From assembly GCA_021772935.1 (NCBI GenBank), contig JAJFLA010000056.1:1-64000 (forward strand): 64,000 nucleotides of DNA. The letters are read 5' to 3'. The position numbers and the translations under genes are program-made. Source of the DNA: Gammaproteobacteria bacterium (GTDB lineage: Bacteria > Pseudomonadota > Gammaproteobacteria > Xanthomonadales > SZUA-36). Positions 37,180 to 59,350 of this stretch are shown here, piece after piece (within the stretch, counting starts at the first letter, position 1; the number at the start of each line of letters is the position of its first letter). The notes below the pieces were generated by a model that worked only from the letters and a program-made list of their open reading frames with translations, made no database searches and was not told the origin of the DNA.

Positions 37180-37354
37180 GCGTGGACTGCTCTAGCTCGG
37201 ACTAGCGTGGCGTAACGTATAAATGGCACATATCAGCGTTGTGAGAAGTAGTTAGATGCAAGGTGGGTCTCGTAGGGAATGGCATGTCCTTTCCAGGAGG
37301 GGCCACACTAGCGTGACGCTGACAAGGTGAAAAATAGACGCGGTACAACGAAAA

Positions 37355-42665: not shown

Positions 42666-42877
42666 TTAAGGAACCTCTGATTTATTCTGAACGAAGTAGA
42701 TTGTGATTCAAAATGTACAGGTTCAAGGCGCGAATCGCACGTAATAGCTAGCTATTGCGAAGATTTGCACCAAGAGTAGGCGCTTGAAGCGACGCGGAAA
42801 CTGGACATTTTGGACGCACCAAGAGAAGGCGCCCTTAGGCGAGATACGATTTCATGAATAGATCAGAGGCTCCTTAA
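42666..42877. repeat. 212-bp MITE-like element with 22-bp terminal inverted repeats
   Basis: The left end at 42666-42687 (TTAAGGAACCTCTGATTTAT and two more bases) and the right end at 42856-42877 are inverted copies matching at 20 of 22 positions. The ends share the outer TTAA, which may be a target duplication or part of the repeat. The middle has no ORF. It has a 14-bp palindrome AATAGCTAGCTATT at 42743-42756 and GC-rich pieces. It lies between ubiI and the cysteine synthase gene, 32 bp before the latter, and fills most of that 316-bp interval. It is best explained as a non-autonomous mobile element; a partial end is seen near 20978. Confidence 0.7.
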
Positions 42878-53136: not shown

Positions 53137-55887
53137 TCAATCGCGTAGTTTTTTAAGTTTTCCGATTTGTGCTTCGAAACCCGCAACCTTCGTCTTGTGT
53201 GTCGCCAAACGCTGGTGCTCTTGTTCGACCACAACAGGTGGTGCATTATCAACAAACCGCTTGTTATCCAATTTGCCCTCAGATCGTTTCAGGTCCGTCA
53301 GTTCGCGTTCCAGTAATTTGTTGAGGCGAGTCAATTCATCTTCCAGATCGACAAGACCTTTTAGTGAAACCAGGATTTTTAGGTCAGCGACCAGGGCGAC
53401 AGAGTATTGTGAGGTATCGGCTCCTTCCTTTAACCACTGGCTCGCCCCAATTTTTCCGAGGCCTTGCAGCAAGTTTGAAAACTGTTGTTGTCGCTTCTTG
53501 TCAGTGGTGGAACCTGCCTGGAATGCGATATCCAAGGTCTTTCCGGGCGCTACATTCAGCTCAGCACGTATATTCCGGATACCCTGCAATACGTTTTGCA
53601 ACCAGCTAATGTCATCTTCAGCTTGCCTGTCGGTGTCACCGGCTTGCGGATATGCTTGTAACATGATGCTCTCGCCCTCGATTTTAAGCGGTGCTTTGAG
53701 CCGTTGCCAAATGTCCTCGGTAATAAATGGCATGATTGGGTGTAAACAACGCAGGCTTCTTTCAAGTACGTACAACAAGGTATAGCGAGTGGCATTCTGC
53801 TCTTCTTTGTTGCCCTTTTGCAGCACAGGCTTTGATAACTCCAGATACCAATCACAGTATTCGTTCCAGATAAACTCGTACAGGCGCTGGGAGGCCAAAT
53901 CAAGTCGGTACTCATTGATATGTCCGCGAATAGCGGCAATCATTTTATGCATCCGGGAGATGATCCAGCGGTCAGCGGCACTGGATTGAGCTACGGCGTG
54001 AACCTCATGATCTGTAGTGCTCATCAACACGTAACGTGCTGCATTCCACAGCTTGTTGCAGAAATTCCGGTTGCCCTCAATGCGCCCGAGGTCAAAGCGG
54101 ATGTCACGGCCGTTGGTGGCCAGTGCCGCGAAGGTAAAACGCAATGCATCACAACCAAAAGCAGAGGTTCCATTTGGAAATTCTTTACGTAGATTTTTCT
54201 CAATCATCGGAGCCATGTGCGGCTGCATTAGACCGGTGGTGCGTTTTTTGACCAGTTCCTCCAACTCAATGCCATCAATCAGGTCGATGGGGTCAAGCAC
54301 GTTGCCCTTGGACTTGGACATTTTTTGTCCGTGTGCGTCTCTGATCAAGCCGTGAACGTAAACTTCACGAAACGGCACATCGCCCATAAACTTCAAGCCC
54401 ATCATGATCATCCGGGCGACCCAGAAGAATATGATGTCGAAACCTGTCACCAGCACATTGGTAGGATAGTATTTGTCCAGGCGTGGTGTCTTGTCCGGCC
54501 AGCCGAGCGTGCTGAAAGGCCACAGGGCGGATGAAAACCACGTGTCGAGTACATCGTCATCTTGTTTGAGTGGGATATCATCAGCGAGGTTGCCACGTTT
54601 ACGGGCGTCGGCCTCATCAAAGCCAACATAGATAGAACCATCAGGGCCATACCAGGCCGGAATTCGGTGACCCCACCATAGCTGACGGGAAATACACCAG
54701 TCTTCTATTCGATGCATCCAGTCAAAATAGGTTTTGTTCCAGTTATCAGGTACAAAACGGATTTTCCCATTCTGTACAGCTTCAATGGCGGGTTCGGCCA
54801 GTGGTGCAATTTTTACATACCACTGGTCGGTCAGGTAAGGCTCAACGATCGCCCCGGACCTGTCACCACGCGGAATCATCAGTGAGTGCGACTCAATTTT
54901 TTCCATCAGGCCAGCAGCTTCCAGGTCGGCTACGATTTGTTTCCGGGCCTTGAAACGGTCAAGTCCCCGGTAGGCTGGTGGGGCTTCATCATTGATGCTG
55001 GCGTCATCATTAAGAACATTGATTGTTGCCAATTGATGGCGCTTGCCCATTTCATAATCATTAAAATCATGTGCCGGGGTGATCTTCACGCAACCAGAGC
55101 CGAATTCGATATCTACGTAGCTGTCGGTAATCACCGGTATGGTACGCCCACTCAACGGCAGTTCCAGTTCCAGGCCTATCAGGTCTGTATAACGTGGGTC
55201 TTCCGGGTTTACCGCAACGGCAGTGTCTCCCAGCATGGTTTCTGGTCGTGTTGTGGCGACTACGACGTAACCCTTACCGTCCACTCGTGGATAACGGATA
55301 TGCCAAAGATGACCACTTTCTTCTTTCGATATGACTTCCAGATCTGAAAGTGCGGTATGTAATACAGGGTCCCAGTTCACCAGTCGCTTGCCGCGGTAGA
55401 TCAGGTCCTCGTGGTAAAGATCGACAAATACCTTTGTAACTGCAAGTGACAGCTCATCATCCATGGTAAAACGACTGTGGTCCCAATCCACCGATGCACC
55501 CAGTCGACGCATCTGTTTGGTGATCTGGCCGCCTGAGTCGTTTTTCCAATCCCACACGGCGTCGATGAACTTGTCCCGGCCAAGGTCATGACGGGAAAGA
55601 CCTTGGTCACCCAGTTGACGTTCGACCACCATTTGCGTGGCAATACCGGCATGGTCCATGCCGGGTTGCCATAATGCGGATTCGCCCTGCATGCGGTGAA
55701 AGCGTGTCAGCACATCCATAATGGTGTCCTGGAAAGCATGGCCCATGTGCAGGTTACCGGTTACATTGGGTGGTGGCAGCATGATGCAGTAGGGCTGTTC
55801 CTGTTCGGTGGGTGAAAAATAGCCCTTCTCTTCCCACAGTTGGTACCAGTGTCTCTCGATGGTATCCGGCTGATAACTCTTTTCCAT
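53137..55887 (-). CDS. valS: Valyl-tRNA synthetase
   Basis: 916 residues, full length for ValS. HIGH motif in [23 protein letters not shown] in [14 protein letters not shown], the CP1 editing domain between ([20 protein letters not shown]), the anticodon-binding domain and the C-terminal coiled coil ([17 protein letters not shown]). It charges tRNA-Val and edits Thr-tRNA-Val. It is third in the minus-strand pepA-holC-valS order of E. coli. Its AAGGAG site (55900-55905) is contained in the outermost arm of a long inverted repeat, so its translation may depend on that structure. Confidence 0.94.
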
Positions 55888-55899
55888 TATGTATTAGTA

Positions 55900-56156
55900 C
55901 TCCTTTAAGGTGATATTGCCGTGCTCAGCGAGTCGGGAAGCGGTTGGGCGCAAGGCACGTCACGCAGGCAATGGCTGGTCCTTGCCAAGAGGCATAACAC
56001 CGCGAACGACCGCTTCCCGACTCGCCCGAAGGGAGCCAAGCAGATGACCCAATGCGGCGTTACAGCCCTTAACAAGGACCAGTCATTGTCTGCGGATTGT
56101 GCCTTGTCTTGGGTCATCTGCTTGGCTCTGAACATGACAATATCACCTTGAAGGAG
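55900..56156 (-). repeat. Structured twin-module element between holC and valS
   Basis: A 257-bp element with outer inverted arms of 29 bp (55900-55928 and 56128-56156, 25 matches, centred on AAGGTGATATTG). Inside lie two head-to-head modules. Module A (55929-56024) is closed by perfect 16-bp arms (CGAGTCGGGAAGCGGT and complement). Module B (56033-56128) is closed by perfect 19-bp arms of unrelated sequence (GAGCCAAGCAGATGACCCA and complement). Between the arms both share a core in opposite orientation: AAGGCAC, then GCAG-CAATG-CTGGTCCTTG and TAAC-CCGC. An inner hairpin GGCAA/TTGCC in A is GACAA/TTGTT in B, so paired bases change together. The outer arms carry the holC stop and the valS ribosome binding site. 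Not a recognised family. Confidence 0.75.
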
Positions 56157-56604
56157 CACCAGTCTCGTGCGTTTGGGGTTTAAGCCCTAGATTACGATAG
56201 ACTTTATATTTCACTCTGGAGGCTTGCCTTTCGTCCTCTGCGTAAGGAACGATCTCCAATACACGGCGGAATCTCTCTGGTTGTGGAACAGCCTCAGGGC
56301 AAAGGTTAATCACGACGTCAGTTGGGTTCAAGCCGGAAAGCGTGCCAATATTGATTGGTGCCTTGTCGAAATCCTGATTGTCGACTCCGGCATGTGGTAG
56401 AAACCTGCCTTTCGGGTATTCCCACATCAGTTTAACCAGTTGCTCACTGGCCGCTTTCGTGGTCGTGATGATGAAGATTTTCTGCTTTCGCTCCCAAGCC
56501 ATCAACGCCAGACGGCAGGCAAGCTCGCCTGCCTGTGATGACGAGGCCCCCAATAGGTAAAAGTCAACCTGGCAAGTCTCTGGATTGGTGTTTTTGCGGG
56601 ACAA
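56143..56604 (-). CDS. holC: DNA polymerase III chi subunit
   Basis: 153 residues. CQVDFYLLGASSS at the N-terminus, LACRLALMAWERKQKIFI, the FLPHAGVDNQ segment and VINLCPEAVPQPERFRRVLEIV correspond to the HolC family. Chi links the clamp loader to single-strand-binding protein through psi. The last residues (ETGAPSR) and the TGA stop are encoded inside the outer arm of the structured element downstream, so the present C-terminus may have been set by that insertion. It follows pepA by 24 bp after the pepA stop, in operon order pepA-holC-valS. Confidence 0.9.
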   Translation of the reverse strand: MSRKNTNPETCQVDFYLLGASSSQAGELACRLALMAWERKQKIFIITTTKAASEQLVKLMWEYPKGRFLPHAGVDNQDFDKAPINIGTLSGLNPTDVVINLCPEAVPQPERFRRVLEIVPYAEDERQASRVKYKVYRNLGLKPQTHETGAPSR

Positions 56605-56628
56605 GGGTTGAAGAATACAGGATCAGGC

Positions 56629-58146
56629 TCAGCTGGCCTGGTCAATCAAAAATTGGCTTAGCAGACCGACCGGTCTGCCAGTTGATCCTTTGTCCCCGCC
56701 CCATATCCATGTCGAGCCAGCACAATCTATATGGGCCCAGCGCTGACCTTTTGTAAAACGGGAGAGGAAACAGCCTGCGGTGATACTGCCGGCCGCCATA
56801 CCACCGACATTCCTCATGTCAGCAAAAGTGGATTTGAGCTGAGGCTGATAATCATCCCAAAGTGGTAAACGCCAACCCCGGTCTATGGCTGCCTGGCCCG
56901 CGTCGATCAACTGCTTGGCGAGATCATCGTGCTTGCTCATGATGGCTGAGGCATGGTGTCCGAGAGCAACCACGCAAGCACCGGTGAGTGTCGCCACGTC
57001 GATCAGTGCGGCCGGATTGAAGCGCTGGCTATAAGTAAGTGCATCGCATAATACGAGGCGTCCTTCTGCATCCGTATTGAGTATTTCTATGGTCTTTCCT
57101 GACATGGATGTGAGAACATCGCCTGGCCGATAGGCATTGCCATCAGGCATGTTTTCAGCGGCGGCAACGATACAGATCAGATTGATGGGTAGTTGGATGT
57201 CTGCACAGGCTTCAAACGCGCCGATGACACTGGCTGCTCCGCCCATATCAAACTTCATCTGTTCCATGTTTGGACCAGGTTTGAGTGAAATACCACCGGT
57301 ATCAAAGGTGATCCCCTTGCCAACCAGGACGATGGGTCGTGTGTTTTCGTTGCTGCCCTGGTATTTAAGAACTATCAGTTTCGGTTCGTTGACACTACCC
57401 TGACCAACAGCCAGTAAGGCCGACATCTTGAGCTGGGCCATTTCATCTTTATCAAGAATTTCGACACTGACATTTTCATAGTCGTTTGCGATCGCCCGCG
57501 CTTGCTCTGCGAGAAAGGCTGGGTTGCAGATATTGGGAGGAAGGTTACCGAGCTCCATTGAACGCAGATAGCCTTTCACAATACCCCTGGCCTCAGCCAA
57601 TGCAAGCTCCATTTCAGCATCAGCATTGAATGAAGCGCTGACTAATGGTTTGTTATCATCATCTTTAGGTGCCTTGGTAGCAGTGTAGCTATAGTTAGCC
57701 CGACCCACATTGACAGCAGCCTGGCGAAGGCGCCAGTGGGCCTGGTCCAGACCAGCCTCTTGGCCGGTTCCCGACATCACTTTGCCAGGCTTGACGGCCT
57801 CGACCTCGTTCAGACAGATATGGGCACTGGTGGTGGCATGATCGCGCAAGAATACACCTGCGCTGCCGCAAACACGGTCATAACGCACCTCGCTGAATTT
57901 TTCAGTTTCACCACAACCCATGACCAGGATACGTTTTGCGACCACCCCTTCCAGTCCATGTAGCATGGTTGTGCCTTTCCAATCGGTATTGATATCCCCG
58001 CTATCGATCAATTGCTGCAGCGCGCCATTACTGGCTTGATCAATCAGTTCTGCAGACCCATGCAAGGCAGCGTGCTCAAATATTCCAATGACAAGGCAGG
58101 CTGTACCGAGCTCTGGTGCTGGTGTTGTGTCGAGTGTAAATTTCAT
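56629..58146 (-). CDS. pepA: Cytosol aminopeptidase (leucyl aminopeptidase, PepA)
   Basis: About 505 residues from ATG 58146, which is preceded by a GGGAGGG site; the open frame to 58206 is not needed. The N-terminal macro-like domain is followed by the M17 catalytic domain: GKGITFDTGGISLKPG (Lys and Asp metal ligands), MKFDMGGAA, and NTDAEGRLVLCDAL (the family signature). It is a hexameric Zn/Mn aminopeptidase that in E. coli also acts as DNA-binding accessory factor. It is divergent from lptF with 67 bp between the starts, as in E. coli. Confidence 0.93.
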   Translation of the reverse strand: MKFTLDTTPAPELGTACLVIGIFEHAALHGSAELIDQASNGALQQLIDSGDINTDWKGTTMLHGLEGVVAKRILVMGCGETEKFSEVRYDRVCGSAGVFLRDHATTSAHICLNEVEAVKPGKVMSGTGQEAGLDQAHWRLRQAAVNVGRANYSYTATKAPKDDDNKPLVSASFNADAEMELALAEARGIVKGYLRSMELGNLPPNICNPAFLAEQARAIANDYENVSVEILDKDEMAQLKMSALLAVGQGSVNEPKLIVLKYQGSNENTRPIVLVGKGITFDTGGISLKPGPNMEQMKFDMGGAASVIGAFEACADIQLPINLICIVAAAENMPDGNAYRPGDVLTSMSGKTIEILNTDAEGRLVLCDALTYSQRFNPAALIDVATLTGACVVALGHHASAIMSKHDDLAKQLIDAGQAAIDRGWRLPLWDDYQPQLKSTFADMRNVGGMAAGSITAGCFLSRFTKGQRWAHIDCAGSTWIWGGDKGSTGRPVGLLSQFLIDQAS

Positions 58147-58213
58147 TGTTTTGGGTCCCTCCCTAAATGCTCCAGCTCTAAAAATGGCCAGTGAGTCATT
58201 TAACACTGCTAGA

Positions 58214-59350
58214 ATGCGGATGAATCAGGCATTCTACAACGATTTAATTGCGAAGATACTAAATTTGAGCATACTGCAGAAATACATATTGCGTGAGTGG
58301 TTCTGGACCTCACTGGCTGTAAGCAGTGTGCTTATCATTGTGTTGCTTGGTACCTACCTTGGCGACATGCTCAATGACATCGCTGATGGCCGGATGCCCG
58401 CAGGGCTGATGACCATACAGTTATTGCTGCATATGCCTGAAACGCTTAGTAATATTTTGCCGTTGGCAGGTTTTGTTGCGATCATGTGGGGCCTGGGTCG
58501 TCTGTACCGGGATCAGGAAATGGCAGTCATGCGCTCCAGTGGTTTCGGTTGGTGGAAACTGTTAAAACCACTGCTCAGTCTGGTGATTCCACTGGCAGTC
58601 CTGTTACTGGTGTTGGGCCTGATTGTTGCCCCGAAAACTGCACGCCTGGCTGAACAACAATTGGAACTGGCCTTTCGTTCTGCGGCTGTCTGGGGTTTGC
58701 AAGCCGGTAAATTTCATGTGCTTCGGCATGGTGAACTGGTTATATATGCTGAAACCATTGAAGAAGATGGCAGTACCCTGCGAAATGTTTTTATCAAGCA
58801 ACGTCAACAGGAAAGAGAACAGATTTGGGTGGCTCAGAAGGGGCGCTACTGGATGGACCCCGATACCGGTGACCGTTATCTGATTCTTGAAGATGGTAAG
58901 GTCACTGATGTTACTCCCCAGCAGCTCGATATACGGGTGTTGCGCTTTGCGCGCAATGATCTGCGTTTGCCCGAGCCAGAGTTTCGAGATCAGAAAAAGA
59001 AAAATTTTAGCTCAAAACCATCAGCAGAATTGCTGAATGACGCAAGTGCAGAATCCATCGCAGAACTGCAATGGCGTTTATCCCCCGCAATCACCGTTAT
59101 TGTTTTGGGTTTGCTGGCTATTCCTCTCGCACACTCAGCGCCTCGTGAAGGTAGAGGTGTCAGGATTGTACTGGGCATTCTGGTTTACTTATTGTATGGC
59201 AACATGCTCTACCTGTGCCGCTCCTTGGTGGCAGATGGCCTTCTACCCACTTATATCGGGATGTGGTGGGTCCACGTTGTTTTCCTCGCTATTAGTTTTG
59301 TATGGGTTCGGCGACAAGGGCGATTTCCTGTGAAGACAAAGTTGACATGA
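58214..59350 (+). CDS. lptF: LPS export permease LptF
   Basis: About 378 residues. Helices near 25-50, 60-85, 105-125 lie before a periplasmic beta-jellyroll region (EDGSTLRNVFIKQRQQEREQ), and three more helices follow from about 290. 'LREWFWTSLAVSSVLIIVLL' and 'GFVAIMWGLGRLYRDQEMAVMRSSGF' are the LptF/YjgP coupling-helix region contacting the LptB ATPase. LptFG with LptB extracts LPS from the inner membrane. ATG 58184 and 58220 are other possible starts. Its ATGA stop overlaps lptG. Confidence 0.92.
   Translation: MRMNQAFYNDLIAKILNLSILQKYILREWFWTSLAVSSVLIIVLLGTYLGDMLNDIADGRMPAGLMTIQLLLHMPETLSNILPLAGFVAIMWGLGRLYRDQEMAVMRSSGFGWWKLLKPLLSLVIPLAVLLLVLGLIVAPKTARLAEQQLELAFRSAAVWGLQAGKFHVLRHGELVIYAETIEEDGSTLRNVFIKQRQQEREQIWVAQKGRYWMDPDTGDRYLILEDGKVTDVTPQQLDIRVLRFARNDLRLPEPEFRDQKKKNFSSKPSAELLNDASAESIAELQWRLSPAITVIVLGLLAIPLAHSAPREGRGVRIVLGILVYLLYGNMLYLCRSLVADGLLPTYIGMWWVHVVFLAISFVWVRRQGRFPVKTKLT

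Follow-up and report, generated by a model that had tools for sequence, protein, structure and literature searches.

The interval between valS (53137–55887, minus strand) and holC (56143–56604, minus strand), both confirmed by Pfam, in the 64,000-nucleotide stretch of DNA analyzed here (the window, from genome G000) holds a single 263-bp element at positions 55897–56159. The element consists of a 31-nt left terminal arm (55897–55927, plus strand), detected as an inverted repeat by sequence, module A (55928–56025, plus strand), the 7-nt linker CCGAAGG (56026–56032), module B (56033–56128, minus strand) and a 31-nt right terminal arm (56129–56159, minus strand). The right arm is an inverted, slightly diverged copy of the left arm; it extends into the 3′ end of the holC frame, whose stop codon (56143–56145) it provides. 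Module A comprises a closing stem, a conserved core and an apical hairpin, and module B lies head-to-head with it. The two were matched at 85.6 bits (E = 2.1e-18) and 88.6 bits (E = 4.1e-19), respectively, by the covariance model R1, which was built on an alignment (A1) of 20 modules from different copies, the window's two included. The linker can form a tiny hairpin, and similar linkers occur in other copies. The left junction carries TA (55895–55896), identified as the target dinucleotide on the basis of TA at 41 of the 44 junctions of young copies in genome G181. CA (56160–56161) stands at the right junction instead of the expected TA, and the empty site described below accounts for one copy only. 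The element has the architecture of a miniature inverted-repeat transposable element (MITE), being <500 bp in length, with inverted terminal repeats and no recognized protein gene; ten open frames from five elements contained no Pfam or NCBIfam family at the curated cut-off.

The original prediction described twin structured modules, head-to-head, between holC and valS. The pair itself was borne out by the R1 matches, but the two modules form the interior of a larger, mobile element. The outer inverted arms (55897–55927 with 56129–56159), the copies elsewhere and the holC stop codon were not part of that prediction. The closing arms of the modules are perfect and have no sequence in common, as claimed, although they measure 17 bp in module A and 20 bp in module B rather than 16 and 19 bp. 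The inner hairpin likewise differs by paired changes, GGCAA/TTGCC versus GACAA/TTGTT (with one G-T pair), and the combination of a conserved core with freely changing, still paired stems recurs in many further copies.

The predicted RNA fold of the element had a free energy of −148.7 kcal/mol, compared with −87.5 ± 5.0 kcal/mol for 200 dinucleotide shuffles (z = −12.4); the minus strand (z = −11.1) and DNA parameters (z = −10.6) gave the same picture. The outer arms and the two modules together make up a predicted four-armed fold. RNAalifold predicted 36 pairs from A1, of which 30 showed two-sided change. A second alignment (A2) is composed of the best 150 of 164 matches. Across 142 distinct aligned modules, 92.3% of 4,878 cells were paired, and two-sided changes were present in 35 of the 36 pairs. 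The covariation score was 0.712, whereas column shuffles scored 0.218 and slid controls no more than 0.111. Scores of this kind are inflated in favor of structure, because the aligned modules are related and were fitted to the model. The first arms were detected from sequence alone. The outermost 15 nt of the module stems fell into 23 clusters among 131 distinct modules. Within 34 elements, identity between modules A and B was 0.69 in a 24-nt core stretch, anchored on AATGG (an anchor that favors the core), and 0.35 in the closing arm, and core identity exceeded closing-arm identity in 32 of the 34. The terminal arms of 58 of 59 elements (L214 was left out) formed about 12 families, a number that may be too high since greedy clustering splits families on one-base shifts; five of these families occur in the window's own genome, and the arms are mostly still paired. 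The anatomy of the element is thus conserved from the inside out: terminal arms and stems are variable yet paired, and the interior core is conserved.

The mismatches in the module stems were biased by strand. In the outermost 15 pairs, read in module orientation, there were 91 G-T mismatches versus 25 A-C mismatches among the 131 distinct modules, which were hand-picked from full-length matches with cut, partial and most low-scoring matches omitted. Neutral change in double-stranded DNA was expected to yield about equal numbers of the two. When the modules were divided by their 5′ start, the G-T:A-C counts were 50:13 for GC.., 20:11 for GA.. (a weak bias, p = 0.15) and 21:1 for GT/GG.., and counting each state once per stem cluster gave 49:21. 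These p values are optimistic, because the modules are related and not independent. The terminal arms of 58 oriented elements, which served as an internal control, contained 63 G-T and 51 A-C mismatches and showed no bias. Since the bias is present in the modules, which lie on opposite strands, and absent from the arms, it is apparently on its own strand that the fold of a module matters, whereas the terminal arms behave like plain double-stranded DNA. The strand bias therefore suggests that a single-stranded fold is what is recognized. Selection on either a folded RNA or single-stranded DNA, as originally proposed, would fit the G-T bias of the module strand.

With the interval as query, BLAST gave 17 matches in the window's genome; of 21 close genomes, the window's among them, 9 had matches, with 37 in G003. 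The covariance model, whose use had been proposed with the original prediction, found many further copies in the same and related genomes. R1 gave 76 module matches in the window's genome at E≤0.1 and matches in 29 of 61 near genomes, four of which had more than 50 matches each; in the class, 87 of 321 genomes and 67 of 243 genera were positive at E≤1e-6 (own genome included in each of these samples). The per-genome copy numbers are lower bounds, as at most 68 candidates were scored per near genome and at most 12 per class genome. Named carriers include Microbulbifer, Sedimenticola, Thiohalobacter, Guyparkeria and Candidatus Thiodiazotropha. A core-pattern scan of genome contigs, which provided the coverage outside Gammaproteobacteria, yielded at least 107 stretches; among the matches listed, 82 of 107 hold a module at E≤0.01 (45 of 50 and 37 of 57 in two batches) and 25 hold none, and the record titles of those 82 name Gammaproteobacteria, gammaproteobacterial groups or plain Proteobacteria. 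Contigs end inside copies in G255, G007 and G003, indicating that assemblies break there and that draft genomes underestimate the copy number. The holC/valS junction of G003 is without a copy, but a full two-module copy is present upstream of holC (L264:211–412). Overlapping module matches in both orientations were present in a Thiotrichales genome (L135:3075–3309), suggesting modules fused core to core.

Empty counterparts of four insertion sites were sought by searching their joined flanks against the window's genome and 11 others, and clear ones were obtained for two of the four. The valS/holC junction was empty in G004, G002, G001, G005 and G006, with a length equal to that of the joined G000 flanks apart from two extra bases in G006, and a sequence from G007 also lacked the element at this position. 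The second site, L218, was empty in all six genomes aligned. An assembly chimera, which would have been a simple explanation of the locus, is ruled out by the copies in many genomes together with these empty sites. The junction of L218 and its empty site are explained by duplication of TA with one element base on each side, and a single additional TA is consistent with the empty-site lengths. The complete 2.96-Mb genome G181 carries 22 near-identical copies with 11 distinct sequences; 16 are full-length and differ from the commonest sequence by 0–1 base, and six further copies, one base shorter, were outside the base-by-base comparison. TA was found on both sides of 19 of these 22 copies (the 41 of 44 junctions cited above). 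In an older, mixed set of 57 placed elements (of 58), TA stood on the left of 38, on the right of 40 and on both sides of 27. Given the 27 of 57 in the older set and the CA to the right of the window's element, the case for TA duplication is carried mainly by G181 and by the empty-site lengths. We infer that the element inserts at TA, probably duplicating it, and that the junctions then decay. As a whole, the dispersed copies, the empty sites and the TA junctions identify a non-autonomous transposable element with a TA target. In a G+C-rich genome, a stop-to-stop test of insertion inside genes did not discriminate, with 19 of 22 sites compared with 378 of 404 controls.

IS630 elements prefer CTAG around the TA, and CTAG was seen at many junctions here. 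A four-base CTAG duplication was nevertheless rejected: the tetramers on the two sides differ in 44 of the 57 placed elements, and in none of the 29 elements with a non-CTAG left tetramer does it equal the right one. Three copies in G181 (L321:799, L357:497 and L363:497) lack TA on one side and border GGCNTGTTAACACTA or its complement there; this sequence, perhaps another repeat family, also flanks L327.

Two further members of the family lie in the window. A copy at 42669–42874 (plus strand) has a single module (42702–42793; R1, 35.1 bits, E = 3.9e-6), other terminal arms (AGGAACCTCTG...) and TA on both sides. It belongs to a second element class, with one weaker module and other arms (AGGAACCTCTGATTTATTCTG...) at TA, that was also found at L226–L229, L232, L241 and L263. 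The valS/holC interval of G008 holds a different copy, of this second class, in which one module was weakly matched (24.6 bits, E = 4.8e-4). The other member (37205–37308, plus strand) is an internally deleted remnant of another subfamily with TA on both sides, its ends placed by eye from likeness to L013 and L014; R1 matched it partially (37256–37314) at 24.9 bits (E = 0.0012). Internally deleted copies that keep both ends and have mostly lost their modules were also observed at L282:623, L286:265, L287:440–505 and L366:6257–6311, and such deletions would be expected of unstable palindromes. Many modules contain an optional 26-nt insert, CACCAAGAGTAGGCGC-NNNN-AGGCGA, which occurs in the window at 42768 and 42817, in L009–L012, L021, L030–L032, L038, L043, L045–L048, L056, L214, L217 and L236, and in others. 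It stands on the 5′ side of the core in 8 contexts, on the 3′ side in 23 and on the other strand once; 5 of 37 contexts had no core within 70 nt, as judged by pattern. Possible identities for the insert are an accessory hairpin and an independent micro-element.

MITEs usually originate from an autonomous element with which they share terminal repeats, although this partner is not always known. In G181, the terminal sequence of the element had 45 matches with up to three mismatches, 44 of which were the ends of the 22 elements. The 45th was an arm of a deleted remnant, 55 bp long, in which the two arms adjoin; this remnant lies 4.3 kb from an IS630-type gene but does not flank it, and was rejected as the end of an IS630 carrier. 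An autonomous carrier with the same ends was thus not found in the complete G181 genome for its one subfamily. The arm of one subfamily had 42 matches in G000; 13 of the 14 module-free matches were examined (the 14th, with three mismatches, was left out), and no inverted pair around a gene was found in the stretches fetched. These 13 were arm remnants, internally deleted copies or single arms, and among them only L287 had a second inverted arm, 66 bases away. In L340, the module close to an IS630 remnant appears to be a separate copy and not a carrier. The transposase search covered two families, RAYT and IS630, neither of which was supported as the mover. A phage or plasmid carrier was likewise unsupported with the copies tried: PLSDB had no match for the window element and two other copies, INPHARED none for the window element, and IMG/VR six pattern matches, none with a module. 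A Sedimenticola copy had no match in E. coli genomes.

A fixed core, stems and arms that change while remaining paired, a strand-specific bias and the lack of a visible carrier are together best fitted by a folded core that serves as an address. We therefore consider it somewhat probable that the element is a non-autonomous transposable element that inserts at and duplicates TA, and that the folded core of its module is recognized by an enzyme acting in trans. A full copy consists of a terminal arm (about 31 nt), a module, a small linker hairpin, an inverted module and a second terminal arm. The core fold would form on one DNA strand, while the element is single-stranded or extruded; the enzyme would recognize the folded core of each module and bring the two element ends together. 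The arms would need only to complement each other and to border TA, and terminal arms and stems would consequently be free to drift. The core could also be kept for a reason unrelated to movement. A broader proposal, which we put forward tentatively and hold to be possible rather than probable, is that these elements form a class in which the folded shape of one DNA strand, or of an RNA folded alike, is recognized and the end sequences are not, with a transposase shared across Gammaproteobacteria. The address of the ends would then lie in the two inverted hairpin modules, whose core is fixed and whose stems can be exchanged, and any complementary arms that border TA would do.

The main rival is an ordinary MITE, in which the terminal arms are read by a transposase that targets TA, whether Tc1/IS630-like or of another kind, and the modules are passengers, retained by common descent or for a side role. 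TA junctions, inverted terminal arms, the absence of genes and a length <300 bp are usual features of such elements in the portions of the published descriptions considered here (PMC10969869, PMC2229807). Among near genomes, the IS630 transposase domain DDE_3 was somewhat more frequent in those with modules (7 of 29) than in those without (3 of 32). However, DDE_3 was not found in the window's genome, nor in 13 of 16 genomes picked for at least eight module matches; it was present in the other three. Furthermore, the element ends of G181 were not found at its five identical IS630 copies (up to six mismatches), nor elsewhere outside the elements and the one remnant. The main difficulty for this rival is that about 12 unlike families of terminal arms share one core, the reverse of a MITE, where the ends are the common part. 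On this evidence we regard an ordinary MITE as rather unlikely.

The modules might instead act as RNA, with a fold that binds a protein of the host or of the element, protects or regulates a transcript, or guides an enzyme. Strong covariation and the G-T bias of the module strand are traces that selection on RNA would leave, and A1 columns 48–55 are mostly a G-U pair (15 of 20 modules). However, the modules lie on opposite strands, so that one transcript would carry one of them as antisense, and yet G-T exceeds A-C in all three module types. A simple scan of 55850–56220 found no promoter-like or terminator-like site, and a search of Rfam 15 with window positions 54000–58500 gave no match above the gathering score; L135, L116 and L085, searched at E≤1, gave two weak matches to microRNA families, both below it. 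A role as RNA therefore seems improbable. Still less credence can be given to the idea that replication or repair keeps the stems paired by copying one arm from the other, the fold itself not being selected. Such copying would suit the long, nearly perfect arms, whose sequences differ wholly between related copies, and the internally deleted copies typical of unstable palindromes, but it predicts neither a G-T preference in one orientation nor a conserved core, both of which were seen. The original prediction rightly set the modules apart from REP sequences, and we regard as negligible the chance that the elements are REPINs or BIMEs moved by a RAYT (Y1) transposase: the hairpins share the head-to-head plan and Y1 genes exist in the window's genome, but no module lay near the five Y1 loci fetched, Y1 genes showed no link to modules (17 of 29 near genomes with modules versus 21 of 32 without), G020 (99% complete) has modules and no Y1 match, and TA at both junctions does not fit Y1 insertion.

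Recognition of a folded core, the reading that we prefer, bears on a family carried by about one quarter of the 321 class genomes sampled. The inside-out conservation raises the testable question of whether the shape of a fold can guide a transposase to its substrate. G181, where 22 near-identical copies occur and the same ends are found elsewhere only in one remnant, offers a starting point in the search for the enzyme. In addition, the repeats interrupt assemblies and can provide the ends of genes, as they do for holC. No description of the family was found in what were mostly the titles and abstract openings of open-licence papers, so that one published elsewhere may have escaped notice. 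The members searched against Rfam had no match at the gathering score.

Among known systems, the TA-flanked MITEs Correia/NEMIS, ERIC and RUP are described, in the parts of the reports considered, as small, gene-free elements with inverted ends, a terminal TA, many copies and stable predicted hairpins (PMC2229807, PMC10969869), and the present element resembles them in each of these respects. Unlike them, it has variable terminal arms, a conserved interior and two inverted structured modules, and its modules occur in 67 of the 243 genera sampled; most module matches are G+C-rich, whereas MITEs are said to be AT-rich. QMITE1 of Coxiella burnetii is 300–400 bp in length and has about 50 copies, a very stable predicted fold and short direct repeats, and a reported IHF site, promoters and DUF1658 peptides, with no orthologues in its authors' BLASTn searches, according to the portion of that report considered (PMC5896051). 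As far as that description goes, the present element is similar in size class, copies, stable fold and short direct repeats; the ten open frames of the family had no match to DUF1658, a feature of QMITE1. REP, REPIN and BIME sequences are likewise paired inverted hairpins dispersed in genomes, but compared with those associated with RAYT the element is much larger, has TA junctions and lacks a link to Y1. In the attC sites of integrons, a folded single strand is recognized and the stem sequence is free. The modules might work alike in principle, although, unlike attC (compared here by Rfam models only), they belong to dispersed elements with terminal arms and TA junctions. If the element class is indeed recognized by its fold, it would be a TA-duplicating counterpart of the structure recognition seen in attC-type systems.
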